Shown piece by piece: positions 7,591 to 24,699 of a DNA stretch of 64,000 nt (position 1 is the stretch's first letter; the number at the start of each line of letters is the position of its first letter). The notes beneath the pieces were generated by a model. It was not told where the DNA came from, did not search any database, and saw only the letters and a program-made list of their open reading frames with translations. The translations under genes and the position numbers were made by a program. Source of the stretch: Pantoea phytobeneficialis. Its GTDB lineage: Bacteria > Pseudomonadota > Gammaproteobacteria > Enterobacterales > Enterobacteriaceae. Where the stretch lies: assembly GCF_009728735.1 (NCBI RefSeq), contig NZ_CP024636.1, positions 2,061,720 to 2,125,719 of the forward strand, written 5' to 3'.

Positions 7591-7591
7591 T

Positions 7592-8167: not shown

Positions 8168-8235
8168 GATGACGGGCCTGAGGGAAATAAAAGCGTATTT
8201 TACGCAACTTATTCCGCGCTGGCTAATCATCTATT

Positions 8236-8300
8236 GTCAAAAATTTTGACTTAAGCCAGCAAATCACCCCACTGGTGTCTGTTTCTTCCTTCTCTATGAT
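8236..8300. promoter_or_regulatory. tetR-pirin intergenic operator and pirin -10
   Basis: GTCAAAAATTTTGAC at 8236-8250 is a perfect 7+1+7 palindrome between the divergent start codons, a typical TetR operator shape. TGACTTAAG occurs twice, at 8247-8255 and 8314-8322. TATGAT at 8295-8300 is a good -10 candidate for pirin, but the -35 is poor. The pirin ribosome site is AGGGAGA, eight bases before its ATG. Confidence 0.5.
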
Positions 8301-8333
8301 GGCGGTATCAAACTGACTTAAGGGAGAACGACC

Positions 8334-9038
8334 ATGAATCTGTTACGTGCACAGCGCGATCAGCTGTTTGAGTATGGCCCTTTCACCATCCGCCGTCAGC
8401 GTCCGGGCGAGGCATTTGGTCCACTGGCGATCATCGACCAGATGACGCTGAAAACCGGGGCGCAGGTGCCGATGCACCGCCATCAAAACGATGAGATTTT
8501 CACTTACGTCTGGCGCGGTTCTTCTCAGCACCAGCATGAAAATGGGGAGCGCACGCCGCTCAACGCCAAACGCGTGATGGTGGTCAGTGCCGGTGAGGGG
8601 CTGCGCCACGAAGAATCCGCGCCGCTGATCGAAACCGAAATGTTGCAGGCTTACATTCGCCCGGCGCAGGAAGGTGGTGAGGGACGGGTGCAGCACTTCA
8701 CCCGTACCGAGGGCGCTGCGGTAAATGCCTGGACGTTGCTCGCGGGGCCTGAAGGCAGTGATGCACCGTTGGCCTTGCGCCAGGCGATCTATGTGTATGA
8801 CCTCAAACTGGAACGCGACCAGCAACTGGCGATTCCGCAGCGCGCAGGTTTCGCCGTCTGGGTGACGCTGCTTGACGGTGTCGTGCGGGTCGGCGATCAG
8901 CGCTTGCATAAAGGTGATGCCATCAGTGATGCCGTTTCCCTGCCCGAGATTCAGGGGGAGCGTGATGCCACGGTGATTGCTTTTCTGGTAAAGGCCGATG
9001 CCCCAGCCGTGACCAGCGGCACCGTCAGCGGACAATAA
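8334..9038 (+). CDS. Pirin-family bicupin protein
   Basis: A 234-residue cytoplasmic bicupin similar to YhhW-type pirins, some of which have quercetin 2,3-dioxygenase activity. The N-terminal cupin keeps the metal-binding pattern: MHRHQNDEIFTYVWRG followed by QHQHENG, with a Glu/His near HEESAP. The C-terminal cupin is degenerate, as usual. Physiological substrate is unknown. It is divergent from the TetR gene and is followed by a strong hairpin, so it is probably a single-gene transcript induced through that regulator. Confidence 0.85.
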   Translation: MNLLRAQRDQLFEYGPFTIRRQRPGEAFGPLAIIDQMTLKTGAQVPMHRHQNDEIFTYVWRGSSQHQHENGERTPLNAKRVMVVSAGEGLRHEESAPLIETEMLQAYIRPAQEGGEGRVQHFTRTEGAAVNAWTLLAGPEGSDAPLALRQAIYVYDLKLERDQQLAIPQRAGFAVWVTLLDGVVRVGDQRLHKGDAISDAVSLPEIQGERDATVIAFLVKADAPAVTSGTVSGQ

Positions 9039-9043
9039 GAAAA

Positions 9044-9075
9044 CCGTAAGGGCGCGATAAATCGCGCCCTTACGG
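9044..9075. repeat. Perfect 15-bp-arm hairpin, divergent REP variant
   Basis: Arms CCGTAAGGGCGCGAT and ATCGCGCCCTTACGG flank AA. The centre matches the window-wide repeat, but the outer arms are GTAAGGGCGC instead of GTAGCGGCGC, with matching changes on both sides. It begins 5 bases after the pirin stop and may act as transcript end or stabiliser. Confidence 0.8.
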
Positions 9076-9184
9076 ATCTTTGCTAACCGACAAACCCGCG
9101 CAGCGAGAATCCTTCTCATTTTCACATCTCGTTAACGATCCGTGACCCGCCTCTGAGTTTTGCCGCGTAGAGCCGTGCAATATT

Positions 9185-9225
9185 CTGACATATCGTAATA
9201 CTAGATATATCTAATTATTCGATAT
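9185..9225 (+). promoter_or_regulatory. Promoter with TAGATATATCTA dyad before the SDR operon
   Basis: CTGACA (9185-9190), 17 bp, then TATCTA (9208-9213) gives a plausible sigma70 promoter. TAGATATATCTA (9202-9213) is a perfect 12-bp palindrome covering the -10. An outer pair, ATATCG (9190-9195) and CGATAT (9220-9225), is symmetric about the same centre. Similar sequences precede the padR gene (14519-14530) and the VOC-dioxygenase operon (23350-23377). I infer a common operator for the PadR-DUF2218 regulator. Confidence 0.6.
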
Positions 9226-9262
9226 CGCACACTCATCAACGCGGAGTTTTCCGGGAGCAATC

Positions 9263-10045
9263 ATGGATCTGGGCATTGGTAACAAACTCGCTTTTATCTG
9301 TGCGTCGTCGCAGGGGCTGGGGCTGGCGTGCGCGCAGGCGCTGGCAGCGGAAGGGGTACATGTCACCCTGAACGGACGCAACGAAGCCAAATTGCAGCAG
9401 GCCGCGCAGCGCCTGCGCGAGCAAAACCCGACGGCGCAGGTCAGCTATATCTGCGCGGATTTAACCAGTGCCACCGGGCGCGATACTATCCTTTCGGCCT
9501 TACCGCAGATCGACATTCTGGTGACCAACAATGCCGGGCCACAGCCCGGTGCGCTGGCAGACTGGCAAGCCGCAGCGCTGCGTGAGGCGATGGAAGCCAA
9601 TTTTATTCCTGCCATTCAGCTCATCCGCGCCTGGTTACCGGCCATGCAGGCCCGGCGTTTTGGTCGCATCATCAACATCACCTCCGCTATGGTTAAAACC
9701 CCGCATTACATGATGGGGCTGTCCACCTCGGCCCGCGCAGCGCTGACGGCAATGTGTAAAGCCATCAGCCAGGAAGTGGTGCGTGACAACGTCACCATTA
9801 ATAACCTGTTGCCGGAGCGAATCGATACCCCGCGCCAGGAATTTATGCTGCAACGTTTAATCGCCAAAGAAGGCATCAGTCGCGAACAGGCGCGGGAGCG
9901 CAATGTGCAATCCATCGCCGCCCGGCGGTATGGCACGCCGGAAGAATTCGGCGCGGCTTGCGCGTTTCTGTGCAGCCAGCAGGCCGGGTTTATTTCGGGG
10001 CAGAACTTGCAACTGGATGGCGGTTCCTATCCGGGGTTGATCTGA
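9263..10045 (+). CDS. SDR-family oxidoreductase with atypical active site
   Basis: A 260-residue Rossmann-fold protein of the short-chain dehydrogenase type. The N-terminal cofactor loop reads CASSQGLGLACAQAL, and the NNAG motif appears as TNNAGPQPG around residue 90. SA is present in NITSAMVKTP, but where YxxxK is expected the sequence is GLSTSARAALTAM. The catalytic Tyr and Lys therefore appear replaced by Ser and Arg. Some divergent SDRs share this type of sequence. It is the first gene of the plus-strand catabolic operon, and its stop overlaps the next start (TGATG). Likely acts on an intermediate of aromatic breakdown, but the reaction is not clear. Confidence 0.85.
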   Translation: MDLGIGNKLAFICASSQGLGLACAQALAAEGVHVTLNGRNEAKLQQAAQRLREQNPTAQVSYICADLTSATGRDTILSALPQIDILVTNNAGPQPGALADWQAAALREAMEANFIPAIQLIRAWLPAMQARRFGRIINITSAMVKTPHYMMGLSTSARAALTAMCKAISQEVVRDNVTINNLLPERIDTPRQEFMLQRLIAKEGISREQARERNVQSIAARRYGTPEEFGAACAFLCSQQAGFISGQNLQLDGGSYPGLI

Positions 10046-10431
10046 TGAACATCCCCCACGCGCAATTACTTGAGTTTGAACAACAGCGCCAGCAGGCGTT
10101 AATTCACGCCGATTTGCCGCGTCTGGCCAGCATGTTGGCGGAAGACCTGGTGCATATCCACAGCACGGGCATGGTGCACAACAAAGCGCAATTTCTGGCA
10201 CATGTGCAACGTATGGGCGGGTTCATCGCGATTCAGCGGGACACGCCCGCCATCCGCGTGGAGGGTGATATCGCCATCCTCACCGGCCACACGCGCAACC
10301 GGGTGCGGCTGCTGGAAACGGGAGAAGAGGCGGAGCGCTACGGTTTCTCGACGCTGGTGCTACGGCGCACACCTTCCGGCTGGCAAATTTTGCTCTCGCA
10401 GTTAACTCCTACAGCAAAGGAAAAAGCATGA
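10045..10431 (+). CDS. NTF2-like (SnoaL/DUF4440) protein
   Basis: A 128-residue cone-fold protein. Segments such as FEQQRQQALIHADLPRLASM, AEDLVHIHSTGMVHNKAQF and the C-terminal WQILLSQLTP fit the DUF4440/NTF2 family. These proteins may be small isomerases, dehydratases or ligand carriers. The start at 10045 overlaps the SDR stop, and the stop overlaps the next gene by ATGA. This tight coupling places it in the same pathway. The exact role is unknown. Confidence 0.78.
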   Translation: MNIPHAQLLEFEQQRQQALIHADLPRLASMLAEDLVHIHSTGMVHNKAQFLAHVQRMGGFIAIQRDTPAIRVEGDIAILTGHTRNRVRLLETGEEAERYGFSTLVLRRTPSGWQILLSQLTPTAKEKA

Positions 10432-11279
10432 AACTGGTACGTTTTACCGAACAGGGCCGCACGCGTATTGGCAAGGTGGTGGATGATCAGGTGATTGACC
10501 TCTCCGGAGTACCTGGCGTCACCGGCTCAATGCGCCAATTGTTGACCAGCCTGGCAACGCTGCGCCCGCGACTGGAAGCGGTGCATAGCCCGGCGTATGC
10601 GTTAGCGACAGTACAACTCGAAGCGCCGATCCAGGACGCGCAGAAGTTCCTTGGCATTGGCATGAACTACCGTAAACACGCTGAAGAGGCGCGTCAGGCG
10701 GGGATCCCCATCCCGGAAAGCCAGTTGTGGTTTAACAAGCAAGTCTCCTGCATCAACGGTCCTTTCTCCCCGGTCGTGAAGCCCGCAGCCAGCGAGAAAA
10801 TGGATTACGAGATCGAGTTAGGCGTGGTGATTGGCAAACGCTGTCGCCATGTCAGCGCCAGCGACGCCGCCAGCGTGATTGCCGGTTATCTGATCGTCAA
10901 TGATGTCTCGGCACGCGACTGGCTGCATAAATCACCGACCTTTACGTTGGGTAAATCCTTCGACACCCACGGTCCGATTGGTCCGTGGATCACCACCGCC
11001 GATGAGATCCCTGACCCGTTGCGGCTGGAGATGAAGTTGTTCGTCAACGGTGAACTCCGCCAGCACGCCGACAGCGGTGACATGATTTACGACATCTACG
11101 CGCAGATTGCATACCTGTCGACGGTGATGACGCTGGAACCGGGCGACATCCTGGCGACCGGAACGCCTTCCGGCATTGGTGCGCCAACCGGACGCTTCTT
11201 ACAACCCGGCGATGTGATGCGGCTGGAGATTGAAGGCCTTGGTCATATCGAGAATCCGGTGGTTGAGGAACGCATATGA
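10428..11279 (+). CDS. Fumarylacetoacetate hydrolase-family protein (first of two)
   Basis: A 283-residue enzyme with the FAH C-terminal domain. KFLGIGMNYRKHAEEA opens the domain, the metal-binding acidic pair is in DYEIELGVVIG, followed by IVNDVSARDW, and TGTPSGIG closes the site. Family members hydrolyse, hydrate, decarboxylate or isomerise ring-cleavage products with Mg/Mn. The gene overlaps both neighbours by 4 bp (ATGA), so it is translationally coupled in the operon. Substrate cannot be assigned; a ring-fission diketo acid is likely. Confidence 0.88.
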   Translation: MKLVRFTEQGRTRIGKVVDDQVIDLSGVPGVTGSMRQLLTSLATLRPRLEAVHSPAYALATVQLEAPIQDAQKFLGIGMNYRKHAEEARQAGIPIPESQLWFNKQVSCINGPFSPVVKPAASEKMDYEIELGVVIGKRCRHVSASDAASVIAGYLIVNDVSARDWLHKSPTFTLGKSFDTHGPIGPWITTADEIPDPLRLEMKLFVNGELRQHADSGDMIYDIYAQIAYLSTVMTLEPGDILATGTPSGIGAPTGRFLQPGDVMRLEIEGLGHIENPVVEERI

Positions 11280-12499
11280 CCAGCCAAAATTTTCGCGATT
11301 ATTTAATGCCCAATGATGCCGAGCGCATCGGCCTGGCGCGCGGGGTGGATCTGCATACCTACGGCGCGCGCATGTTGGCAACCGAGAAAGCGCAGAAACT
11401 CAAAGCCCACTGGCAGGCGATGCTGGATGAAACCTTCCGCGGCATTACCCCCAATGGCGAGGTGCAGTCCGGTCTGTTCAGCTTGCAAGATGAGGGGTTT
11501 GCCGTGGAAGAGGCGGTGAGGGCAGCGCAGGCGCTTTTTGCCAGCCTCGATAGCGCCCGACAGCAGCAGGTGAGTTACGCCATCGATGCGCCACAGTGGC
11601 GCGCCTGGTACAACCCGGAAATCCCGTTTAACGATTACGGTGTCAGGCTGGATGAAACCTCGGCGGTGACCCACGAAGCCTTCTGGTCGCTGCTACGGAG
11701 TTGTACCAGCGCGGCGGGTTTTAGCCGGGTGCAACAGGTGATGGATGCCAACCATTTTCTCGGTGAACTGTACGATCTCACCCACATTATGAACCGCTGG
11801 AGCTTCCATTTTTTGCTGTTCGGTTCACCTTCCGCTACCCAGCCGTGGGGCTGGTCGATTTACGGTCATCATGTGGCGTTTTGCTGTTTTATCGTCGGGC
11901 GGCAACTGGTGATTGCCCCGACCTTTTTCGGCGTTGAACCCAATGTTATCGAACGGGGGGATGCCAGCGATTGCGTGTTGTTTCGCGACGAGGAGCAACT
12001 CGGTCTGGCCTTGATGCAGTCGCTCAGCGCCCGGCAGCAACATCGCGCCACGATCTATCAGTTAATGGAAGATCCCGCCATGCCGGCCGATCGCTTTAAC
12101 TTTGCCGATCAGCGTCACCTTGGCGGTGCATTTCAGGACAATCGGGTGATCCCGCTTGAGGGCGTCTGCGTGGCGGAATTTACGCCCGCGCAGCGTCAAC
12201 AAGTGATGGCGCTGGTAGCGGTGTTCCTGGCTTTCCTGCCCGACGGACCGCGCGCTGCGCGCCTGCAACAGATTGAGGCCCAGCTCGATAACACCTGGTG
12301 GAGCTGGATTGGCGGTTGTGGTGATGACGATGTGTTCTATTACCGGCTGCAAAGCCCGGTGGTGATGCTGGAGTTTGATCATCACAGCGGCATGTGGCTG
12401 ACCAATGAAGAACCGGCGCGTTTCCATATTCATACCATTACCCGCATTCCCAACGGGAACGACTACGGCAAAGCGTTGTTGTCGCAGTTGCAGCAGTAA
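11276..12499 (+). CDS. DUF3500-family protein
   Basis: A 407-residue protein matching my memory of DUF3500. It has a Trp- and His-rich core with WGWSIYGHHVAFCCF, FFGVEPNVIERG and a C-terminal YYRLQSPVVMLEFDHH. Conserved His and acidic residues suggest a metal-dependent enzyme, but no activity is established to my knowledge. There is no signal peptide, so it is probably cytoplasmic. It overlaps the FAH gene by ATGA, tying it to the catabolic operon. Confidence 0.75.
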   Translation: MTSQNFRDYLMPNDAERIGLARGVDLHTYGARMLATEKAQKLKAHWQAMLDETFRGITPNGEVQSGLFSLQDEGFAVEEAVRAAQALFASLDSARQQQVSYAIDAPQWRAWYNPEIPFNDYGVRLDETSAVTHEAFWSLLRSCTSAAGFSRVQQVMDANHFLGELYDLTHIMNRWSFHFLLFGSPSATQPWGWSIYGHHVAFCCFIVGRQLVIAPTFFGVEPNVIERGDASDCVLFRDEEQLGLALMQSLSARQQHRATIYQLMEDPAMPADRFNFADQRHLGGAFQDNRVIPLEGVCVAEFTPAQRQQVMALVAVFLAFLPDGPRAARLQQIEAQLDNTWWSWIGGCGDDDVFYYRLQSPVVMLEFDHHSGMWLTNEEPARFHIHTITRIPNGNDYGKALLSQLQQ

Positions 12500-12616
12500 A
12501 CCCAGGCGCAACGCCTGAATTCCTGTCGTACCGGGTGACGTCGTTCTGCCCGGGTAACCCACAGTGCCAGTTGACCGTTCCCGTCAGGGATTTCGGGCGG
12601 CTTCGCTGTGCCCCAC

Positions 12617-12667
12617 GCGCGAGAAATCGCGCCGTAATTGAAATCGCGCGATAAACCGCGCCGCTAC
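12617..12667. repeat. Two REP-like copies between DUF3500 gene and porin gene
   Basis: Two same-orientation, slightly degenerate minus-strand copies: GCGCGAGAAATCGCGCCG from 12617, and a copy ending CGCGCCGCTAC at 12646-12667. The second ends 17 bp before the porin ATG, so it lies in the leader or spacer of an otherwise continuous operon. Confidence 0.75.
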
Positions 12668-12684
12668 AATGAGGTTATCAGGCA

Positions 12685-14019
12685 ATGGATGTTCATAAAA
12701 AAGCCAAAATTGCTGCATTAACCGTAGTGCCTCTGGCGTTGTTCTGCGGTACTTGCTTTGCGGAGGCTTCACCTGCAACGGACTCCGATAGCGTTAACGA
12801 CTGGCTCACACAAGGCAATATCTCTGGCGAGCTAAAAACCATGACCTTTTTTAAAGAGTTCAGCGGCACCCAGGTTAACAAACGCACCAGCTCGGTGGGC
12901 GGAGATATTCAATATCGCAGCCCACAAATCGGCGGTTTTAGCGCCGGGGTGGGCGTGTACGGGGCGTATAACCTCGGGCTGAATCCTTCCGACCCGGAAC
13001 GTACCGAAATCTATCTGCCGTCGGAAAACACCACGGTGCTGGGTAAAGCCTTCCTGCGTTATCAGGGCTATGGCTTTGATTTGCAGGGAGGACGTTTAGG
13101 TCTGGATACGCCGTTTGCCAATGAAGGGGAAGGCTGGACCATGATCCCGGCGCTGTATCAGGGATTCGGCGGCAGTTATGCGTTGGATGATAAGGGCGAC
13201 CTGAAACTCAACGCCTGGCGCATCTACCGCTTCAAACCGGAAAGTTCCGACCAGTTCGGCAAAGGGGATGCCGGTAACCCGGAAATCGAGGACACCAGCA
13301 TGCCGTCGGTGGACAGCGACGGTTTCACCACGGTGGGGCTGCGCTACGGTCAGCAGTGGAATACGGTGGCGGAAGCCTGGTACTACAACTTCGATAAACG
13401 CGCTCAGCTGGGCTACGGTGGCGTCCAGCTACCGGTTTCGGCGTTGAAATTCGGCAACTGGACACCGTACTGGGGCGCGCAGTATCTGCATGAATGGGAT
13501 GCCAGCGACCAGGCGTATCCTTATCACAATATCGATACCGATCTTTATTCCGGGCGTATCGGCATGAAAACCCGCAATCATGATCTGTATTTCGCCGCGA
13601 CGTATGTGCCACGCAAAGATGATGCCTTCCTTAACGGTGGCTTCTTCGCGCCTTATAGCTACGGTATTTACGACCATACCCCGCTCGAAAGTGGTCAGCC
13701 GTTGGTGTCGATGGTCACCACCAACCAGCCGGGCAAGGCCTTTGCCTTACGCTACGCGTACCATGATGAAAAGTATCTCGGGGTGTTTGGCGTGACGCGT
13801 CTGGAACTGGAGGATTCCAGCGGGATCTACTATCCGCTACCGGCGGAGAACATCAATGCCGCCTTTATGATCCTCGGCTATAACGTCACGCCGCGTCTGC
13901 ATCTGGAATTCGAGTTTGACTACGTCCATTCACCGAATGAGGTGACGGGTAACTACCATGCGGAACGTCTGCGTCTGGTATATCGCTTTGGCGCGAAAAT
14001 GGCAGATGATGATTATTAA
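12685..14019 (+). CDS. OprD-family outer-membrane porin
   Basis: A 444-residue protein with signal peptide MDVHKKAKIAALTVVPLALF...CFA and a beta-barrel rich in alternating aromatic residues, ending in an outer-membrane-type C-terminus. GNISGELKTMTFFKEF and FLRYQGYGFDLQGGRLGLDTP are typical of OprD/OpdK-type substrate-specific porins, which admit carboxylates and aromatic acids. Position inside the catabolic operon suggests uptake of its substrate across the outer membrane. The ribosome site is GAGG, ten bases upstream. Confidence 0.88.
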   Translation: MDVHKKAKIAALTVVPLALFCGTCFAEASPATDSDSVNDWLTQGNISGELKTMTFFKEFSGTQVNKRTSSVGGDIQYRSPQIGGFSAGVGVYGAYNLGLNPSDPERTEIYLPSENTTVLGKAFLRYQGYGFDLQGGRLGLDTPFANEGEGWTMIPALYQGFGGSYALDDKGDLKLNAWRIYRFKPESSDQFGKGDAGNPEIEDTSMPSVDSDGFTTVGLRYGQQWNTVAEAWYYNFDKRAQLGYGGVQLPVSALKFGNWTPYWGAQYLHEWDASDQAYPYHNIDTDLYSGRIGMKTRNHDLYFAATYVPRKDDAFLNGGFFAPYSYGIYDHTPLESGQPLVSMVTTNQPGKAFALRYAYHDEKYLGVFGVTRLELEDSSGIYYPLPAENINAAFMILGYNVTPRLHLEFEFDYVHSPNEVTGNYHAERLRLVYRFGAKMADDDY

Positions 14020-14031
14020 TCAGGAGATGAT

Positions 14032-14418
14032 ATGAGCCGACGCGAAAGTATCTATATTGATGCCTTTCCCCATACCAATCCGATCCCGGCGGCGTGTCGG
14101 ATAGGCGCGATGTTGTATTCCGGGGTGATCTACGGACGCGACCCACAGACCCAGCAGGTGCCTGCCGATCTCGGCGAGCAGTGCGCGCTGATGTTTAGCC
14201 ATATCGAAAGCATCGTTAAGGCGGCGGGTGGCACGCTGGAGGACGTCATTAAGGTGACGTTATGGATGCAGGATAAATCGCAACGTGAGGTGGTGAACCG
14301 CTACTGGCTGGCGACATTCCCGGATGCCAACGCCCGCCCGGCACGCCATGCGCTGGACGGCAACTTTAGCGGTAATACCTTAATTCAGTGTGACTTTATC
14401 GCGGTACTGGATCGTTAA
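14032..14418 (+). CDS. RidA/YjgF-family protein
   Basis: A 128-residue member of the Rid family (enamine/imine deaminases and related ring-cleavage enzymes). The family arginine lies in NARPARHAL, and the C-terminal strand is TLIQCDFIAVL. The second conserved acidic position reads CD rather than the common E[CI]. Twelve bases separate it from the porin stop, with AGGAGATGAT before the ATG. In aromatic pathways such proteins deaminate aminomuconate-like intermediates or remove reactive imines; either would fit here. Confidence 0.85.
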   Translation: MSRRESIYIDAFPHTNPIPAACRIGAMLYSGVIYGRDPQTQQVPADLGEQCALMFSHIESIVKAAGGTLEDVIKVTLWMQDKSQREVVNRYWLATFPDANARPARHALDGNFSGNTLIQCDFIAVLDR

Positions 14419-14499
14419 TCTCTCATTGCGGGCAGTGATTGTATCTGCCCGCACCTTTCTCTATATTCCCTGTGCAACGGAAACGATGGCCGTAACGAC

Positions 14500-14530
14500 T
14501 TGGACTATGTCGGAAATTTCGATATATTTA
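14500..14530 (+). promoter_or_regulatory. padR promoter with overlapping dyad
   Basis: TTGGAC (14500-14505), a 17-bp spacer and TATATT (14523-14528) form a strong sigma70-type promoter. TCGATATATTTA (14519-14530) overlaps the -10 and matches the 9202-9213 palindrome at 10 of 12 positions. This suggests that the PadR protein represses its own gene. Confidence 0.6.
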
Positions 14531-14580
14531 AAATTCAGTGATCATTGTGTGGTTATTTGCGTAACTGCGTGGGGGCAGTC

Positions 14581-15402
14581 ATGGTTGGACAAAGCGAAAT
14601 GGATACGCAGCCTGCGGCTGGCAAAACGGGTCGCCGGGCGCGTGCCTTCGATTATGGCGAGTTACGCCTGCTGTTGCTGGCGATCATCGCCAAACAACCC
14701 AGCCACGGCTATGAGCTGATCCATGAAGTAAATGAACGTCTGGGCGGCACCTACAAACCCAGCCCCGGCGTGCTCTATCCGGCGCTCACCTGGCTGTACG
14801 ATCGCGGCTATGCCGAGATTGACTTAGAAAAGGGCGGGCGCAAACGCTACCGCATCACCGACGAAGGGAATGCGTTCCTCAGTGCCAACAAAACCGTGAT
14901 TGATATGTTGGTGGCGCGTGTGGTGCCAAAACATCAGGGACAAGGCAAGTCGCCGCAGGCGATTGTTGAGGCGATGGACCATCTGAAACGTGCGTTAAGT
15001 CTGCGTGCCAAAATGGAGCCGGTGGCGGATCAGGTGGTCACGCGTATCGGGGAGATTATCCATGTTGCCGCTAACCAGATTGAAGCGTTGCTCAATGCGC
15101 CGACCCTGAGCGAAGGTGCGGCGAAGTGCGTGGCCGATATCGTGACGCCAAACGGCGAGCGTTTTCTGCGCCGTCTCGGCAGCCATTTTCAGCACCGCAC
15201 CCCGGTGGTGATGGATGAGAACAGCGGCCATTTCCGCATGAGTATGGGGGAGGTTCGTATGGAAGTGCTGGACGGTATTTTCCGCGTCACCCTCACCGCG
15301 TTGAATGAAGAGAAGCTGACCGAGATGCAGCATATTCTGGTGCGCCATCTGGAAGAGGCAGCGGTACGTGAAACGTTGGAAGTGATATGGCAGCAGGTTT
15401 AA
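14581..15402 (+). CDS. PadR-family regulator fused to DUF2218 domain
   Basis: A 273-residue two-part protein. Residues about 20-100 form a PadR winged helix: LRLLLLAIIAKQPSHGYELI, SPGVLYPALTWLYDRGY and GRKRYRITDEG. Residues about 185-270 match DUF2218: VTPNGERFLRRLGSHF, then FRMSMGEVRMEVLDG and RHLEEAAVRE before WQQV. DUF2218 is otherwise a small stand-alone domain often seen with iron or siderophore genes, so it may sense a ligand. The ATG at 14581 has GGGGG upstream. The gene lies between two convergent catabolic operons whose promoters share a dyad also present in its own promoter. A local repressor role is inferred. Confidence 0.85.
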   Translation: MVGQSEMDTQPAAGKTGRRARAFDYGELRLLLLAIIAKQPSHGYELIHEVNERLGGTYKPSPGVLYPALTWLYDRGYAEIDLEKGGRKRYRITDEGNAFLSANKTVIDMLVARVVPKHQGQGKSPQAIVEAMDHLKRALSLRAKMEPVADQVVTRIGEIIHVAANQIEALLNAPTLSEGAAKCVADIVTPNGERFLRRLGSHFQHRTPVVMDENSGHFRMSMGEVRMEVLDGIFRVTLTALNEEKLTEMQHILVRHLEEAAVRETLEVIWQQV

Positions 15403-15412
15403 GGTAAAAACC

Positions 15413-15434
15413 GCGCGATAAATCGCGCCGCTAC
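15413..15434 (-). repeat. REP-like copy opposing the 60-bp array
   Basis: A canonical copy in reverse orientation, 10 bp after the padR stop codon. It reads GCGCGATAAATCGCGC followed by CGCTAC. With the first array unit it can form a larger inverted pair. Confidence 0.8.
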
Positions 15435-15450
15435 CGAAGATTGCCCGGTT

Positions 15451-16015
15451 TGTAGCGGCGCGATTTATCGCGCAAATCCGTGCATCCGTATCGTCAATCA
15501 TTGTCCGGTCTGTAGCGGCGCGATTTATCGCGCGAATCCACGCATCCGTATCGTCAATCATTGTCCGGTCTGTAGCGGCGCGATTTATCGCGCGAATCCA
15601 CGCATCCGTGTCGTCAATCATTGTCCGGTCTGTAGCGGCGCGATTTATCGCGCAAATCCGTGCATCCGTGTCGTCAATCATTGTCCGGTCTGTAGCGGCG
15701 CGATTTATCGCGCAAATCCACGCATCCGTGTCGTCAACCATTGCCCGGTCTGTAGCGGCGCGTTTTATCGCGCAAATCCGTGCATCCATATCGTCAACCA
15801 TTGCCCGGTCTGATTTGCGCGATTTATCGCGCAAATCCGTGCATCTGTGTCGTCAATCATTGCCCGGTCTGTAGCGGCGCGATTTATCGCGCGAATCCAC
15901 GCATCCGTGTCGTCAACCATTGCCCGGTCTGATTTGCGCGATTTATCGCGCAAATCCGCGCATCCGTGTCGTCAACCATTGCCCGGTCTGATTTGCGCGA
16001 TTTATCGCGCAAATC
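15451..16015 (+). repeat. 60-bp tandem array of REP-like palindrome plus fixed linker
   Basis: Nine complete units and a partial tenth start at 15451, 15511, 15571, 15631, 15691, 15751, 15811, 15870, 15930 and 15989. Each begins with the palindromic repeat and continues with a nearly constant linker (GCATCCGTATCGTCAATCAT with few changes, then TGCCCGGTC or TGTCCGGTC). Units at 15811, 15930 and 15989 start TGATTTGCGCG instead of TGTAGCGGCGCG. That makes 59-bp units whose arms GATTTGCGCG/CGCGCAAATC pair fully. The array fills the gap between two convergent operons. Long open frames across it arise because 60 is a multiple of three. Confidence 0.92.
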
Positions 16016-16022
16016 AGAGCGA

Positions 16023-16787
16023 CTAGCGAAAATCCGCCGCCAGCGCCGAGGTGGCTTTCACCAACAATCCCACATCGCTACCCACCGCAACAAAGGTGGC
16101 ACCCAGCTCCAGATAACGGGCGCAGAGCCTGGGATCGGCACTCAAAATTCCCGCCGCTTTACCGTGAAACTGAATGCGTACCAGCGCCGCCTCAACCACC
16201 TCCTGGACTTCCGGCGCACCTGGCTTGCCGGGAAAACCCATATCCGCCGCCAGATCGGCAGGTCCAATAAACACCCCATCGACCCCGTCAATAGTGGCAA
16301 TGGCATCCAGTTGCGCCAGACCAGCACGGCTTTCCACCTGCACCAGCAGGCAAATCTGTGCATTGGCGCTGGTGAGATAATCTGGTGTGCGGTTAAAGGC
16401 TGAGGCCCGTGCCAGCGCCGCGCCGACGCCACGGATACCCTGCGGTGGATAACGTACCGCTTTCACCAGCGCCTGAGCCTGTGCGGCACTCTCCACCATC
16501 GGGATCAGCAACGTTTGTGCGCCAATATCCAGCAACTGCTTAATCAGCCAGGGTGCATCCATTGGCGCACGCACCACCGTATGCGCGGGCGAGGCTGCCA
16601 GCGCCTGTAACTGCTGCATCAACAGCGGTACGTCATTGGGGGCGTGCTCGCCATCCAGCAGCAGCCAGTCAAACCCGGCACCGCCACAGATCTCAGCACT
16701 GTAAGGATTGGCGAGCGCCAGCCACAGGCCAATTTGCGGCTGTTGGTTGTGCAGCGCCTGTTTAAAACGATTAATCGGTGCAGACAT
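16023..16787 (-). CDS. hpaI: HpcH/HpaI-family aldolase
   Basis: A 254-residue class II pyruvate aldolase like 4-hydroxy-2-oxoheptanedioate aldolase. It would release pyruvate plus a semialdehyde in the last step of a meta-cleavage pathway. The base/metal set is visible: [46 protein letters not shown] and [10 protein letters not shown]. The second ATG (16787) is preferred because GAGG then sits five bases upstream. It follows the hydratase gene with 7 bp between stop and start. It is the last gene of the operon and ends next to the 60-bp array. The symbol reflects family, not proven substrate. Confidence 0.85.
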
Positions 16788-16794
16788 CATTACC

Positions 16795-17598
16795 TCACGC
16801 AAAGTAGCAGCTGACGGAACCGTGACGGCCATAGTCAGCATGGATGGTGTCGCCGTGACGGGCCTCGATCGGACGGATAAACGAACCGGCAAGCACGATT
16901 TGGCCGGCGGCAAGGTGGTCGCCATACTGCGCCAGTCGGTTCGCCAGCCAGGCGATGCCGCGTGCCGGATGGTTCAGAACCCCGGCCCCTAAACCGGTTT
17001 CCTCGACTGTGGCGTTGCGCGACACAATCGCGCCCATCCAGCGCATATCGACATTTTCTGGCGCAAACAACTGGCTACCTAACACGATGCCTGCGTTGGC
17101 GGCATTATCAGAGACGGTATCGACGATAGTGCGCGCTTTGCCGCTGGCAGCATCGCTACGCACGATGCGGGTGTCGAGAATCTCCAGCGCCGGTAGCACA
17201 TAAGCGGTGGCGGCCAATACCGCTTCAACGTCCACGCCTGGCCCGCGCAGTGGCGCGTTAAGTACGAATGCCAGTTCCGCCTCGATACGTGGCTGAATAA
17301 AGCGGTCAGCCGGGATGGTGGCCCCGTCATCAAACACCATGTTGTCGAACAGCACGCCGGAATCGGGAGTGTCGATATTCAAGGCGTACTGCATCGCTTT
17401 CGATGTCAGGCCAATTTTCCAGCCGATGACCTTCCGCCCGCCCTCAATTTTTTGCCGCACCCACGCCTGTTGCACCGCATAGGCATCATCCAGCGTCATC
17501 TGCGGGTAGCGCAGCGACAACAACCCGGTCTGGCTGCGGCTACGCTCGGCCTGGTCCAGCGCTTCGACGGCGGCGAATAACTCGCTCTGGCTTAACAT
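16795..17598 (-). CDS. hpaH: 2-oxo-hept-3-ene-1,7-dioate hydratase-like enzyme
   Basis: A 267-residue member of the HpaH/MhpD hydratase family, which adds water to 2-hydroxydienoates before aldol cleavage. Family marks are [29 protein letters not shown], the metal-binding [11 protein letters not shown] and a C-terminal [15 protein letters not shown] at 17598 has GAGG seven bases upstream. A GTG at 17604 is possible but less well placed. It sits between the FAH gene (TGA at 17601-17603) and the aldolase, matching the order of reactions. Confidence 0.87.
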
Positions 17599-17600
17599 GG

Positions 17601-18476
17601 TCACACCTCATCCTTAACGTGATTGCGCAGGGTGCCAATCCCTTCGGCGTGGACTTCAATCACATCACCGGGCTTCAACCAGACCGGTGGCTCAAAGCGC
17701 GCGCCCGCACCGGTGGGGGTGCCGGTGAAGATGATGTCGCCGGGATTAAGCGGGATAAAGGTTGAGATATAGGCGATGATCCAACGGAATGAGAACGTCA
17801 TATTGCAGGTGCGGTCGTCCTGACGCAGTTCACCGTTAACATGGGTGGTCAGACGAATATCCGCGATCTGCGCGGCTTCGGTAAAGGGCACCAGCCACGG
17901 GCCAATCGCGCCGGAGCGATAGAAGTTCTTACCCTGAGTGACATTGAATTTACTGTGTCGCACCCAGTCGCGCACCGTGCCTTCATTGCCAAGCGTAATG
18001 GCAGCGATATGGTTTAACGCCTCGCTTTCAGGAATCCGGCGACCAGATTTGCCGATCACCATCACCACTTCACCTTCGTAATCAAGCTGCTCACTCTCGG
18101 CGGGGCGCAGCAGCGGCTGCTGATGGCCGGTGAGTGATTCAGGAAAACGGACAAACATCGACGGATAATCCGGCGCGCTCTGACCGTCTTTATATTCAGC
18201 GTTGCGGTTGGGGTAGTTCACACCAATGCACAGAATTTTGCCTGGTTGCTCAAGCGGCATCTCGAACTGGATATCGGTCAGGGCATAATCCACCGGCAGG
18301 TTTTTCGCCTCGGCGGCCAGCGCGGTGAGGGCGTTATCAGCGATCACCGCATCCAGCGTCGGCCAGCGATTGGCAAAGCGCGGCTTAAGGTCGATCACCC
18401 CAGCGCCACTGATCAAACCATAGCTTTGCACCTGACCCTTTTCGGCGGAAAAACGGATAAATTGTGGTCGTTCCAC
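17601..18476 (-). CDS. Fumarylacetoacetate hydrolase-family protein (second of two)
   Basis: From a GTG at 18476, with AGGGAG seven bases before it, the product has 291 residues. The longer open frame up to 18554 adds 26 unrelated residues. KILCIGVNYPNRNAEY opens the catalytic domain, DYEGEVVMVIG gives the acidic metal pair, and LGNEGTVRDWVRHSKFN and FTGTPTGAGARF follow. It differs clearly from the 10428 paralogue. In homoprotocatechuate-type pathways the equivalent step is decarboxylation and isomerisation of the ring-cleavage product, which would fit its place before the hydratase. Confidence 0.87.
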   Translation of the reverse strand: MERPQFIRFSAEKGQVQSYGLISGAGVIDLKPRFANRWPTLDAVIADNALTALAAEAKNLPVDYALTDIQFEMPLEQPGKILCIGVNYPNRNAEYKDGQSAPDYPSMFVRFPESLTGHQQPLLRPAESEQLDYEGEVVMVIGKSGRRIPESEALNHIAAITLGNEGTVRDWVRHSKFNVTQGKNFYRSGAIGPWLVPFTEAAQIADIRLTTHVNGELRQDDRTCNMTFSFRWIIAYISTFIPLNPGDIIFTGTPTGAGARFEPPVWLKPGDVIEVHAEGIGTLRNHVKDEV

Positions 18477-18596
18477 GGGTTTTCTCCCTATTTTGGCAAA
18501 AATGCGGCGAGCAGAAGCCCGCCGCTCCCAGCATGAAGGCTGAGCAGTTTTCAAGACACAGGAGGGTTTGCGGCGTTGACGCAGCGCCGTGGCGCG

Positions 18597-19643
18597 TTAT
18601 GCCAGGTTGAACATGCGCGCGGCGTTACCACCCAGAATGTTGGCTTTGTCTTCGGCGCTGATATCGAGACTCTCGATGGTTTCAATGCCTTTAAAGAACC
18701 AGTCTTTACGGATCGGGTAGGAGCTGCCGTACAGGATGTTTTTGCCGCCAATCACTTTCACTGCGGCTTCCAGTTGCGCTTTGCCCCATTGCGGCGCGCC
18801 GGAGGTATCAAAGAAAATGTTGTTGCTCAGTTGCGCACGCAGGTTGCCGGTGCCGGTCTGGAAACGATCCACCGCATCGTTGAACTGATGTTGTGGCGGT
18901 ACCAGCATATCGGCGAAGGCGTAGAACGCACCGCCCAGCATCGAGTGGATAAAGCGCAGGTTTGGCAACTCATCAAACATGCCGCTGAACAGCTCACGAC
19001 CCACCGCAGTCGCCTGATCCACGCAGCGACCAAACTGGCGACGCTGGTTGGTGTAAGGCAGCACGGAGTTGAAATCCACCGGCAGCGGGGTGTGGTGAAC
19101 CACCACCGGCACCTTGAGGTCGTTGAGGAACGTCAGGTATGGACGGAACGCCGGGTCATCGAGGTAGATTTGGCCGTAGTGCGCCACGATTTGCGCGCCA
19201 CGGAAACCGAGTTGATTCAGGCAACGGTCCACTTCACGCAGGCAATCGTCAGTCCCCCACGGTGGAACCACCGCCAGCGCTGACATGCGGCCTTCGCTGC
19301 GTTTCACGTATTCCGCCATGCGGGTGTTGACCTCTTTACAGGTCTCCAGATCCAGCCACTCCTGCCACACCGGCAGACGGAAAATGGCGTGATCAACCCC
19401 GGCTTTCTCCATATCCGCCAGTTGGCTTTCCAGCGTGTATTGCCCTTCGGCGTAGTTGAGGTTAACAAAGCCTTTCGGCTGCTCAATGATCAGCTGGCTC
19501 AGTTCCTTGCCTTCAATTTTCTCCACGCGAGTGTGCACGCCATATTGTTTTGGCACGCAGTCGAGAAATGAATTCAGCAGTTTCTTGTCAGAAAACAGCT
19601 CGCCCGGCAGCCAGTGCATGTTGGCATCGATAATCTTGCTCAT
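18597..19643 (-). CDS. Amidohydrolase-2 family protein with altered metal and catalytic residues
   Basis: A 348-residue TIM-barrel protein of the ACMSD/resorcylate decarboxylase group by overall pattern. Family members decarboxylate or hydrate aromatic acids using a metal. Here the usual DxHxH at the N-terminus reads DANMHWLPG, so the first His is Asn. The usual GSDYP near the C-terminus reads ILYGSSYPIRK, so the catalytic Asp is Ser. The His residues in VVVHHTPLP and RFIHSMLGG remain. It sits between the monooxygenase and FAH genes. It may be a decarboxylase or hydratase with changed chemistry, or a non-catalytic partner. Confidence 0.8.
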   Translation of the reverse strand: MSKIIDANMHWLPGELFSDKKLLNSFLDCVPKQYGVHTRVEKIEGKELSQLIIEQPKGFVNLNYAEGQYTLESQLADMEKAGVDHAIFRLPVWQEWLDLETCKEVNTRMAEYVKRSEGRMSALAVVPPWGTDDCLREVDRCLNQLGFRGAQIVAHYGQIYLDDPAFRPYLTFLNDLKVPVVVHHTPLPVDFNSVLPYTNQRRQFGRCVDQATAVGRELFSGMFDELPNLRFIHSMLGGAFYAFADMLVPPQHQFNDAVDRFQTGTGNLRAQLSNNIFFDTSGAPQWGKAQLEAAVKVIGGKNILYGSSYPIRKDWFFKGIETIESLDISAEDKANILGGNAARMFNLA

Positions 19644-19678
19644 AGTCAGTTCCTTTCTGTCTCAATTAAGGGGATAAA

Positions 19679-20965
19679 TTATTTTTGGGTGGCAAAAACT
19701 GATTTGTATTTCGTCGGTTGGTCGGTCTCTTTTTCTGTCGGGATGCGCATACCGGCTTTGGCGTGGTACTCGCTGAAAATCGACAGGGCTTCTTCGTGCG
19801 GGAAGATGTTTTCAATGTCGTCGAACGGCTTACCACCGCTACGTTCTTCGACGATACGGCGCACCACTTCCGGGCCTTCGCCGCGTGATGCCAGCACCAG
19901 CCAGTTCACCTTCTCGCGGCGCTCCAGCTCATAGGCTTGCAACGCGGCGACCGGGTCAGCGATGGTGGCGAGTTTCTCGGCGATGACGCGGGCATCGACA
20001 AACGCCTGGCAGACGCTGTTGCCACCGCGCGGATACATGGCATGGGCGGCGTCGCCGAGCAGGGTGATGCGGCCAAATGACCATTGCGGTAACGGGTCAT
20101 GGTCGATCAACGGGAACAGATAGCATTCGCGGGCGTTGCGGATCATGGCGCTGACATCGATAAAATCGAGCTGGCAGTCGTCAAACACATGCTCAATCTC
20201 TTTGACGCCGGTTTCCTGGTTCCAGTCCTCTTCGCTTTGTGGTTTCTCGTTCTGCTCAATCACCCAGTTCACCAGTTGATTGCCCTGGTCATCGACGTTG
20301 TTCTGGATCGGATAGACGATCAGCGTGCCCTGACGAATCGGATCGCCGATATGCAGAATGCTGCCGCCGGTTTTGAACGGCGGCATCACGGTGACGCCGC
20401 GATATAAGGTCAGACCGGAGAAGTGGCTGCGGGCTGATTCCGGCAGCAGTTTGCGGCGCACCACCGAACGGATACCATCGACGCCAATCACCACATCGGC
20501 GCGCACGCTTTGCGGAGCATTGGGATTGAGACGGGTATCAAAATGCACGGTTACGCCGCTGTCATCCTGTTCGAAATGGCTGCAACGGCAACCAAGGGTG
20601 ATGGCATCCGCACCGAGGCGTTCCTGTACCGCTTTGTACAGCATCATTTGCAGATGGCCGCGATGGACGAAGCGTTGGTCGTATTCGTAGCCCATATGCT
20701 TGCCGCATTGCTCGCCAAAAATTTGCTGGCCGTAGCCGGTATAGAAAATGGACTCTTTAGCTTCTACGGAGATGTCGACAAAGGCGTCGTACAAACCCAT
20801 TTCAGTAATTTCTTTCACCGCATATGGCTTGATATCTACGCCGACTCCCAGCGGTTTGATTTCAGCGACGGCTTCAAACAGGCGCGGGCGAAAACCCTGT
20901 TGATGCAGGCGCAGGGCGGCAGCCAAACCGGCCGGGCCGGCACCAATGATGACGATATCCAACAT
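19679..20965 (-). CDS. PhzS-like FAD-dependent monooxygenase
   Basis: A 428-residue class A flavoprotein hydroxylase. The N-terminal dinucleotide site is VIIGAGPAGLAAALRL, the family DG motif is VVIGVDGIRSVVRR near residue 165, and the second FAD motif is ITLLGDAAHAMYPRGGNS near residue 300. EIKPLGVGVDIKPYAV and FVHRGHLQMML closely recall PhzS, which hydroxylates phenazine carboxylate, and salicylate hydroxylases. Such enzymes use NAD(P)H and oxygen to add a hydroxyl, often with decarboxylation, preparing the ring for cleavage. No membrane segment is seen. Confidence 0.85.
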   Translation of the reverse strand: MLDIVIIGAGPAGLAAALRLHQQGFRPRLFEAVAEIKPLGVGVDIKPYAVKEITEMGLYDAFVDISVEAKESIFYTGYGQQIFGEQCGKHMGYEYDQRFVHRGHLQMMLYKAVQERLGADAITLGCRCSHFEQDDSGVTVHFDTRLNPNAPQSVRADVVIGVDGIRSVVRRKLLPESARSHFSGLTLYRGVTVMPPFKTGGSILHIGDPIRQGTLIVYPIQNNVDDQGNQLVNWVIEQNEKPQSEEDWNQETGVKEIEHVFDDCQLDFIDVSAMIRNARECYLFPLIDHDPLPQWSFGRITLLGDAAHAMYPRGGNSVCQAFVDARVIAEKLATIADPVAALQAYELERREKVNWLVLASRGEGPEVVRRIVEERSGGKPFDDIENIFPHEEALSIFSEYHAKAGMRIPTEKETDQPTKYKSVFATQK

Positions 20966-20990
20966 AATGACTTCCTCTTGTTATTCAGAG

Positions 20991-22217
20991 TTAACTGTGG
21001 CTTTTCAGGGTATTAGCTTTGAGATCGTGACCGGGCTGGCGCTGTACATCGCGCAGCCAGATCGGTAATCCGGCGAGGCAGACCACCAGACCACCGAGAA
21101 CCAGCAGTGCCAGCGACTGCGGGTCTTCACTGTTCTGCGCGGCGATAAACAGCGGTGGGCCTAAGAACACACCGACCAGCGTCAGTTGGGTGATCAGACC
21201 GCTGGTGGCTCCGATGCTTTCGCGTGATGGCGCGACCACCGGAGCCAGCGCCCACATGCCCACCAGCAAACCGCTGCCGAACATAAACAGCCAGGAAGCA
21301 CCGATGGACAACATAAAGCCGAGCGGCAGGGTGAAAATCGCCAGCGCGGGTGCGCCGGTCAGTACCAGGCCTACTACGCCAATCGCGGCAGCTCTGACCC
21401 CCCGGTTCAGCAGTGCGCCAACCATCAGGCAGCCAATGCCGTTACATACCATCGCCACCACGTTCCAGTGGGCGACTTCCAGCAGTGGCACGCTGTAGCG
21501 TTTGGCGAGATACGGGGCGAGGGTGGAGATAATGCCGGTTTGCAAAAAGGCATCAGCACCGAAGGAAATACCCAACAGGTAGATCAACGGGCTACGCAGC
21601 ACGGAGCGTAAGCCTCGGGTGCGTGAGAATTGTGCCTTCTCTTCTGGCGTGCGACGCGGCAGGCTGACGGTGGCGACAAACGCCAGGGCCAGCGTCAGGA
21701 CCGAGTGCGCCAGGAAGGCAGCACGCCAGTTGCCAAAATGGTCGGCCAGACCGGCTGAAAGGAACGGCAGCAGAAAACTGGCAGGAACAAAGGTGGACCA
21801 CAACGCCATCGCCATATTACGTTGCTTACCGGTGGTGATGCGGATCAGCAAGGTCACGGCGGCCACGGCGGTTAACACATAACCGATGCCGGTAACGATG
21901 CGCCCGCCCAGCAGCAGATTAAACGACGGTGCCGCGACCACGCAGATATCCCCCAGCACAATCACCACGGCACCGATTAGCAACACCACCCGATCCCCGG
22001 CGCGGTCGACGATATAACCCGCCAGCAGCGCGCCGAGAGCCACCATCAATGATGGCAGCGACATAATCAGGCCGATCTGGCTGTGTTCAAACACATGAAA
22101 CTCTTTGGCAATCGAACCTAACTCAGTCACCGCTTCGCTGACCGTCATGGCTGCCATCACGCCGAGCGCGTAGGCGACCAGAATCCGCACCAGCGGGTTT
22201 TGAATAAATGTACTCAC
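20991..22217 (-). CDS. MFS transporter, probable uptake of the island substrate
   Basis: A 408-residue transporter with about 12 transmembrane segments. The loop 2-3 motif region reads GYIVDRAGDRVVLL, and a motif-C-like LPRRTPEEK loop separates the halves. The GTG at 22217 is preferred to the upstream TTG because GGGAGA lies seven bases before it. It lies inside the catabolic operon 25 bp upstream of the monooxygenase gene, so import (or export) of the aromatic substrate is inferred. Family-level substrate is unknown. Confidence 0.82.
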   Translation of the reverse strand: MSTFIQNPLVRILVAYALGVMAAMTVSEAVTELGSIAKEFHVFEHSQIGLIMSLPSLMVALGALLAGYIVDRAGDRVVLLIGAVVIVLGDICVVAAPSFNLLLGGRIVTGIGYVLTAVAAVTLLIRITTGKQRNMAMALWSTFVPASFLLPFLSAGLADHFGNWRAAFLAHSVLTLALAFVATVSLPRRTPEEKAQFSRTRGLRSVLRSPLIYLLGISFGADAFLQTGIISTLAPYLAKRYSVPLLEVAHWNVVAMVCNGIGCLMVGALLNRGVRAAAIGVVGLVLTGAPALAIFTLPLGFMLSIGASWLFMFGSGLLVGMWALAPVVAPSRESIGATSGLITQLTLVGVFLGPPLFIAAQNSEDPQSLALLVLGGLVVCLAGLPIWLRDVQRQPGHDLKANTLKSHS

Positions 22218-22278
22218 GATCCGTTCTCCCAATAGCTGATTTCACACAGGATTTAGCGTTATGGATTGACGCAGGCGC

Positions 22279-23292
22279 TTAGCCATCATTGGCAAGGGCG
22301 AGAAAGCGCTCCAGCGTGGGCGGATCGATCGGGGTTTCCGGCTGGATAACCGGAACGTTGGCGAAGGGCGTCGCTTCGGTAAACCATTTGTTTTGCGCCG
22401 GGAGTCCCCACTGGTCGGCACGTTTGGGATCGGCCAGATTCCAGCCAAGCGCCGGTTCGATGTCGATATGCTGGTAGTGGGTATTAAACAACTCGATACG
22501 ATGGCCGTCGGGATCGCGGAAGTAGACGAACAGGGCACCGCTGATGCCGTGACGACCCGGACCTCGTTCCAGTTGCGGTGCGTAACCGAGCGCACCGGCC
22601 ACGTCACAGGCGCGGATCATGTCGTTAGTATCGGGCAGGGTGTAGGCAAAATGGTGCAGGCGCGGCCCCGGCCCCTGGGTGAAGACGATATCGTGCGGAT
22701 TCCCTTTGCGCTGTAGCCAGACGCCCCACAGATGTTGATTGTCTTCGACCTGCGACCAGGTGTATTCGCTGACGCGAAAACCCAGCGGCTGATAGAACGA
22801 CCAGGCCTGACGTACATCGCTGGTTTGTAACTGATAGTGGTCAAGGCGCTGGGCGCTGGCACCGCGATAATGCTGGTAATTTTTCAGCATGCGCTCACAG
22901 GCATCCATCGACGCGCAGAATTCCAATGGGACGCCAACATGGTCGCTGACATGCAGGGTTAAGCCCTGAAAGGGCACCTCAACAATGCGCGTTTCCTTAC
23001 CCTGTGCGGCGAAATAGTCTTCCGCTTTATAGATATCGTCATCGCGGCACACGCGCATCCCGATACGGGCGCAGTGGGTATCGCTGGCTTTTTTTAACAC
23101 CAGGCTGTGATGCCCACGTTCCTCTAATCCGCGCAGATACACGCTGGACGCATCCTCATCACTGACCACCAATCCGATTAAATCGGTGTAGAAGCGTTTG
23201 CTGACCTCAAGGTCACGAACGTTCAGGACAACATGACTGGCACGCGTCACGTTGAAAGGTGGCTCCAAAACCAACTCATCGATCTGTGGCAT
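22279..23292 (-). CDS. VOC-family extradiol ring-cleavage dioxygenase (HPCD type)
   Basis: A 337-residue type I extradiol dioxygenase with two vicinal-oxygen-chelate modules. The first begins ASHVVLNVRDLEVSKRFY. The second carries the iron ligands: His in RLDHYQLQTSDV, His in RLHHFAYTLPD and Glu in GHRIELFNTHY. It resembles homoprotocatechuate 2,3-dioxygenases of the Brevibacterium/Arthrobacter type and is unlike the unrelated E. coli HpaD. It is the first gene of the minus-strand operon, so it probably commits the dihydroxylated substrate to meta cleavage. No dehydrogenase for the product semialdehyde is in this operon. Confidence 0.87.
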   Translation of the reverse strand: MPQIDELVLEPPFNVTRASHVVLNVRDLEVSKRFYTDLIGLVVSDEDASSVYLRGLEERGHHSLVLKKASDTHCARIGMRVCRDDDIYKAEDYFAAQGKETRIVEVPFQGLTLHVSDHVGVPLEFCASMDACERMLKNYQHYRGASAQRLDHYQLQTSDVRQAWSFYQPLGFRVSEYTWSQVEDNQHLWGVWLQRKGNPHDIVFTQGPGPRLHHFAYTLPDTNDMIRACDVAGALGYAPQLERGPGRHGISGALFVYFRDPDGHRIELFNTHYQHIDIEPALGWNLADPKRADQWGLPAQNKWFTEATPFANVPVIQPETPIDPPTLERFLALANDG

Positions 23293-23349
23293 GGGTATGT
23301 TCTCTCTTTCAGATAAAAGGGGTACCGCTCAGTGTTGTTGTAATAAATT

Positions 23350-23377
23350 TAGATATATCGTGTTAATAGATATATCT
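23350..23377. promoter_or_regulatory. Twin TAGATATATC sites before the dioxygenase operon
   Basis: TAGATATATCG (23350-23360) and TAGATATATCT (23367-23377) are direct repeats 17 bp apart, each nearly the 12-bp palindrome found at 9202. They lie 58-85 bp upstream of the dioxygenase start codon. The 333-bp gap to the next gene also holds one REP-like copy (23462-23483) and nothing else recognised. No strong -10/-35 pair was found on the minus strand. Confidence 0.6.
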
Positions 23378-23461
23378 CATAATGTTGCCGGGATAGGAGA
23401 TCGAGCGCACAGATTGAAAGGAAAATTTTTGCGGTGTGATAAATCGAATAATGCCGGTTTC

Positions 23462-23483
23462 GTAGCGGCGCGATTTATCGCGC
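23462..23483 (+). repeat. REP-like palindromic repeat, single copy
   Basis: A canonical copy (GTAGCG plus GCGCGATTTATCGCGC) in the gap between the divergent dioxygenase and hydrolase genes. Unlike most copies it therefore lies upstream of both flanking genes. Confidence 0.85.
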
Positions 23484-23625
23484 AGGTTTGTATCGCACTG
23501 TATCTGCATTGCTCCCCAATACATCGCGAGGCAAAAATCCGGGTTAGCAGAAACAAGCGCTATACATCGGGGTGGTGTAATTCAGGCGTTGTCACTTACA
23601 CATCAAATTTTCTGGAGAGAACGCC

Positions 23626-24621: not shown

Positions 24622-24645
24622 TTCTGTGGTAATAAGTTATTGTCG

Positions 24646-24673
24646 GACCGGTATTTTATGACCGGTCTTTTTT
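24646..24673 (+). terminator. Rho-independent terminator after hydrolase gene
   Basis: GACCGGT and ACCGGTC form a 7-bp stem around an 8-nt AT-rich loop, followed directly by six T residues. Confidence 0.85.
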
Positions 24674-24699
24674 GTCTGGCCCGCTGACAGGAGGTTGTT

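Follow-up and report, generated by a model that had tools for sequence, protein, structure and literature searches.

The closest described relatives of the regulator considered here belong to the NfeR (YqjI) branch of the PadR family. NfeR represses nfeF, nickel relieves this repression, and deletion of nfeR in Klebsiella pneumoniae raised nfeF 85-fold (PMC7981267), from which we take it that the branch represses. In Escherichia coli K-12, the dyad TAGATATATCTA begins 33 bp before nfeR, and a copy with one mismatch, CAGATATATCTA, is found at a distance of 25 bp from where nfeF starts. To go by the title of one paper, the binding sites of NfeR reportedly fall inside the yqjH-yqjI intergenic region. 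Here, we examine a padR-DUF2218 gene in a 64-kb stretch of Pantoea phytobeneficialis DNA (the whole stretch analysed, hereafter the window), where it stands at the convergence of the two gene groups of a catabolic island (9.2-23.3 kb), a left arm headed by an SDR oxidoreductase gene and a right arm headed by an HpaD-type dioxygenase gene.

The 12-mer that precedes E. coli nfeR recurs without change in the window, and the window protein shares 35% identity over 148 residues with E. coli NfeR; together, these likenesses identify the motif of the island as one of the NfeR type. We consider it highly probable that PadR-DUF2218, as a member of the NfeR/YqjI branch, acts as a local repressor of both catabolic arms through GATATATC dyads.

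Tandem operators in the window and in other genomes

The regulator gene and its candidate operators are as follows.

14581..15402, + strand: padR-DUF2218 regulator, 273 aa from ATG 14581 (PF03551, 61.9 bits; PF09981, 70.9 bits)
9202-9213: SDR-operon dyad, perfect TAGATATATCTA
14519-14530: padR dyad, TCGATATATTTA
23350-23361: first dioxygenase-operon dyad, TAGATATATCGT
23367-23378: second dioxygenase-operon dyad, TAGATATATCTC
9187..9228: SDR-operon operator, with units GACATATC (9187-9194), GATATATC (at 9204) and a weak GATATCGC (9221-9228)
14519..14530: padR operator, one weaker dyad overlapping a sigma-70-like -10 box, TATATT (14523-14528)
23352..23376: dioxygenase-operon operator, exact tandem GATATATC-N9-GATATATC

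The original prediction, made from this DNA, had listed these four dyads and noticed no further copies in the window; they lie where it placed them and are the sole matches at up to two mismatches in the 64 kb, compared with a mean of 0.51 and a maximum of 3 in 100 dinucleotide shuffles. What it overlooked is that the core of the operator is GATATATC and that this core is paired at exactly 17 bp at both catabolic promoters, the SDR operator forming a 17-bp-period series like that of the dioxygenase promoter, with the GATATATC at 9204 centring TAGATATATCTA. Overlap of a dyad with a -10 box, which it had stated for the SDR operon and padR, holds at one of the three promoters, that of padR, where a sigma-70-like promoter (14501-14528) overlaps the dyad; at the SDR and HpaD promoters, a sigma-70 promoter search returned no match. 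Across the 5.7-Mb genome, GATATATC-N9-GATATATC (up to two mismatches over 16 positions) has three matches, all inside the island, and the reversed tandem, searched in the same way, has none. Separately, a block of CGATCCGTGACC...CTCTGAGTTTT at 9136-9161, upstream of the SDR dyads, is clear in eight of 12 aligned promoters and weaker elsewhere, and is perhaps an activator site.

Conservation was followed across 13 islands, after dropping a near-identical strain (L038) and four stretches that are apparently the same contigs as other entries (L039, L040, L041, and L043; G033, G288, G162, and G005, respectively). The 17-bp core pair (up to one mismatch in each core) was found in 12/12 SDR and 13/13 HpaD promoters, the former numbering 12 because one contig set carries its SDR promoter elsewhere, and the pair GACATATC-N9-GATATATC was found in all 12 left-arm promoters. 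No other core spacing between 9 and 40 bp was seen more than once among these islands. In the promoter alignment, the dyads of the more distant islands are conserved amid diverged flanking DNA, and the exact 17-bp pairing persists where the island regulator is only 58-66% identical. The padR promoters carry GATATATTTAAA in 10 of the 13 aligned, with variants in L070, L072, and L042. When 11 other island genomes were searched whole, all 11 had the tandem (up to one mismatch), and 22 of the 23 matches lay at SDR or HpaD promoters; the reversed tandem had none. One of these 22, on a separate contig of G162, proved, on checking, to precede the SDR operon.

Among 25 of the 29 same-genus genomes that lack the fusion (G013, G014, G019, and G024, which have no PadR match, were excluded), 24 showed no tandem. 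The remaining genome, G010, has one exact tandem within a 66-bp stretch (L130, 1495-1560) that is 85% identical to the dioxygenase promoter of the window. Its neighbours are a TonB-receptor gene and a gene of OrfB_IS605/TnpB-like type; this 3-kb locus yielded no match to any island gene queried, and we read the stretch as a leftover of a lost island. In Candidatus Pantoea haifensis (L071/L043), padR, DUF3500, exported protein, HpaD, MFS, and other genes match in separate pieces, as frameshifts or assembly errors would produce, and the island looks decayed; both tandem operators are still present there.

A blind scan for the exact tandem in 398 genomes of the phylum returned four genomes with one match each, and the reversed tandem matched in one genome (G088). 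One of the four matches is the window itself; each of the other three immediately precedes an NfeR-like padR gene, and in two cases a DUF2218-like stretch follows downstream. Seven plasmid loci of Alphaproteobacteria (Agrobacterium, Ancylobacter, Rhizobium, Marinibacterium, and Martelella) were hand-picked from 138 records, and in five of them GATATATC-N9-GATATATC stands just before an unfused padR. The proposal that one dyad and one regulator join both arms is therefore supported: the dyad is conserved across islands, is nearly absent where the fusion is absent, and fronts padR in another class.

The fused regulator and its relatives

The PadR-DUF2218 fusion, also claimed by the original prediction, is real, with both domain profiles over their cut-offs: the protein carries the PF03551 winged helix that marks PadR regulators and a DUF2218 domain (PF09981) whose predicted fold is that of PA4090. 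Its predicted structure combines the winged helix of PadR proteins with a C-terminal domain resembling PA4090, and with a mean predicted local distance difference test (pLDDT) score of 82 and a predicted template-modelling (pTM) score of 0.45, the individual domains can be trusted and their relative placement cannot. The open reading frame (ORF) extends to TTG 14545, and we infer a start at ATG 14581, from which there is no His or Cys before the helix-turn-helix. Pantoea sp. AS-PWVM4 carries a regulator that matches it at 100% identity. A search of one literature collection found no paper pairing DUF2218 with PadR and none linking PadR, an operator, and TATATC.

The His-rich N-terminal extension of NfeR is missing from the window protein and from its fused relatives, of which 45/45 have zero or one His and Cys ahead of the conserved segment that opens the DNA-binding domain; 75 unfused relatives, most with a His-rich N-terminus, have a median of nine (range 0-16) before that domain. 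In a midpoint-rooted tree of 18 fused and 28 other proteins taken from a larger set, all 18 fused proteins form one clade (99/100) beside an unfused His-rich relative; NfeR and the paralogues sit on long branches of uncertain position. The His-Phe-x-His and His-Leu motifs of DUF2218 are invariant in an alignment of 36 of the 46 fused proteins.

The unfused plasmid relatives share further features with the island. The Agrobacterium PadR of L078 is 53% identical to the window protein over 135 residues, and a DUF3500 gene lies nearby in L077, L078, and L112, as it does in the window. DUF2218 is found on the gene after padR in Agrobacterium and Ancylobacter (L077, L078, and L109), joined to an O-methyltransferase; in L112 and L113, the next gene matches the methyltransferase part only. 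The neighbours of plasmid padR genes include esterases or an annotated tannase gene, and in L109 (Agrobacterium pAt1, 7134-10385), an annotated subtype B tannase gene is divergent from the NfeR-like padR, followed by the DUF2218 O-methyltransferase stretch. The metallophore loci for methylolanthanin and rhodopetrobactin likewise contain DUF2218 genes (PMC11317620). In a scan of DUF2218 neighbourhoods covering 72 of 139 script-called ORFs from 30 loci, only four of the 72 matched DUF2218, the ORFs having been poorly chosen. Past the dioxygenase promoter of L069, a second NfeR-like PadR, His-rich, is coded at 16829-17566, with similar matches in L071 and L076; the ORF that follows it in L069 resembles a TonB-dependent receptor, by eye only.

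Genes and candidate pathway of the island

From strand and gene spacing, each arm appears to form a single operon. Genes of the left arm are all on the + strand and those of the right arm all on the - strand.

9263..10045, +: SDR oxidoreductase, heading the left arm (domain profile search)
9958..10431, +: SnoaL/DUF4440-like protein (domain profile search), its real start probably near 10045
10428..11279, +: FAH-family hydrolase (domain profile search)
11276..12499, +: DUF3500 protein, candidate ring-cleaving enzyme (PF12006, 338 bits)
12685..14019, +: predicted exported protein, with a signal-like N-terminus
14032..14418, +: RidA-like protein (PF01042)
22279..23292, -: extradiol dioxygenase, heading the right arm (HpaD equivalog; TIGR02295, 330.6 bits, cut-off 321.4)
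20991..22232, -: MFS transporter (domain profile search)
19679..20965, -: FAD-dependent monooxygenase (profile search)
18597..19643, -: Amidohydrolase_2 protein, resembling 5-carboxyvanillate and gamma-resorcylate decarboxylases
17601..18554, -: FAH-family hydrolase (profile search)
16795..17604, -: HpaH-type hydratase (TIGR02312, 413.3 bits, cut-off 351.5)
16023..16925, -: HpcH/HpaI-type aldolase (domain profile search)

Enzymes of the HpaD, HpaH, FAH, and HpcH types suggest an extradiol meta-cleavage route, and the Protein Data Bank (PDB) match of the HpaD-type dioxygenase is homoprotocatechuate 2,3-dioxygenase. The exported protein, which has no Pfam or PDB sequence match, is perhaps a beta-barrel porin. 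Literature searches for the substrate gave a single lead, a fungal DUF3500 protein proposed to be a dioxygenase that opens 1,2,3,5-tetrahydroxybenzene in gallate breakdown (PMC12388069). This proposal and the tannase-annotated gene beside the Agrobacterium padR relative make a polyphenol substrate plausible.

Two further observations concern the DNA around these genes. Next to the left arm (7592-9038) are genes for a TetR protein and a pirin/quercetinase-like protein. Between padR and the right arm (15440-16015) lies a tandem array with a 60-bp period and 9.6 copies, each containing GCGCGATTTATCGCGC or a near-variant; for this palindrome (up to one mismatch), 38 matches are listed across the window, some of them forming a regular series at 58554-59001, and the array is probably a REP-like (repetitive extragenic palindrome) element.

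Proposed regulation and comparison with known systems

We infer a mechanism in which PadR-DUF2218 dimers would bind GATATATC dyads. The tandem arrangement at 17 bp suggests that two dimers probably sit side by side at the catabolic promoters (possibly three at SDR), and the single weaker dyad over the -10 box of its own promoter would allow autoregulation. With inducer absent, both arms would be off; as an aromatic substrate or ring-fission intermediate built up, it would bind the regulator, probably via DUF2218, and the ligand-bound protein would leave the DNA so that both arms were expressed together. An aromatic compound from the island pathway is the probable inducer. DUF2218 would have replaced the metal-binding His-rich tail, and the lack of a His-rich N-terminus in the fused proteins speaks for such a change of sensor; our working hypothesis is that the domain is a ligand or metal sensor. 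Its ligand is perhaps a catechol or the iron complex of one, as hinted by the O-methyltransferase fusions near unfused padR genes, the metallophore loci, and the invariant His-Phe-x-His and His-Leu motifs. Only tentatively do we extend this to a history in which DUF2218 binds a catechol or ferric-catecholate and the fusion converted a metal regulator to one sensing the island's ring-cleavage substrate, the ancestral operator being kept.

Several results weigh against joint repression of both arms by this protein. Genome-wide over-representation of the single 12-mer had to be rejected, as it has 60 matches (up to two mismatches) and its reversed pattern 115, so that the 12-mer by itself proves nothing; genome-wide specificity belongs to the tandem operator and not to the loose motif. 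Four of the 60 matches fall inside 14.2 kb, with P ~2e-5 if that interval had been named beforehand and no more than 0.027 for any interval of this kind, and in a single genome the lone motif makes only a moderately convincing case. At the padR promoter there is just one dyad, a weaker one, without the 17-bp pair in 12/13 islands and divergent in L042. One of the 23 tandems in the other island genomes, in G068, lies outside the island, and two plasmid loci lack the 17-bp tandem (L109, which has one core and, 10 bp further, a variant, and L110, which has one core). Four of the 13 islands (the window and L066-L068) are closely related and weigh less than independent cases would. Finally, another NfeR-like PadR, coded in the same genome next to a siderophore-interacting protein, might compete for these sites.

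Of the alternatives, the one that survives best, although we regard it as unlikely, is that the protein is an activator, the tandem dyads lying upstream of the promoters and recruiting polymerase once ligand is bound. In its favour, no sigma-70-like promoter was found at SDR or HpaD that would fix where the operator lies, and the block conserved ahead of the SDR dyads hints at additional control; against this, NfeR is a repressor (PMC7981267), and the padR dyad overlaps a -10-like box. Less likely still is that the dyads serve another regulator, either the TetR-like protein (7592-8230), whose gene adjoins the left arm, or the NfeR-like paralogue, which has the same DNA-binding type, with PadR-DUF2218 a mere neighbour. 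In the available stretches of the 13 islands, the TetR and pirin/quercetinase-like genes were found only in the window and L066-L068, whereas the fused padR and the tandem are present in all 13; the 25 fusion-free genomes searched do carry paralogue-type PadR, yet 24 lack the tandem and the 25th holds a remnant; and the tandems examined outside the island, among which the one in G068 is not counted, sit at padR genes. That the motif arose by chance as AT-rich promoter sequence, TATATC being similar to some -10 boxes, and was retained through close kinship is very improbable and largely refuted, since the exact 17-bp pairing is kept with regulators 58-66% identical and diverged flanks and the blind scan singles out padR genes, even though the reversed 12-mer outnumbers the motif and three near relatives are almost identical across these promoters.

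Repression of both arms by PadR-DUF2218 remains our preferred reading, and it gives a PadR-DUF2218 regulator both a regulon and an operator open to test, GATATATC-N9-GATATATC. The NfeR-type DNA motif reaches beyond the nfeF-nfeR pair and into two classes of Proteobacteria, and the island would offer a natural example of sensor replacement on a retained operator. DUF2218, a domain of unknown function, gains a concrete functional hypothesis, and DUF3500, a proposed ring-cleaving type, is tied by regulon to a regulated bacterial aromatic pathway.

PadR of Bacillus subtilis and VanR act in phenolic-acid metabolism. Both have the same PadR winged-helix fold as the window protein and structures with p-coumarate and vanillate, but only about 20% identity to it in structural alignments. 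PA4090 (PDB 2jpi), a stand-alone DUF2218-like protein deposited as hypothetical, has no DNA-binding domain in the solved chain. No FAD_binding_9 or SIP match, as expected of a siderophore-interacting nfeF neighbour, was found among the 19 ORFs scanned at 7592-25440, and the window gene accordingly has no adjacent nfeF. Like NfeR of E. coli, the window protein would be a local regulator adjoining its target; unlike NfeR, it lacks the His-rich N-terminal extension, carries an additional C-terminal DUF2218, and is associated with dyads in tandem at 17 bp and with aromatic catabolic genes as neighbours.

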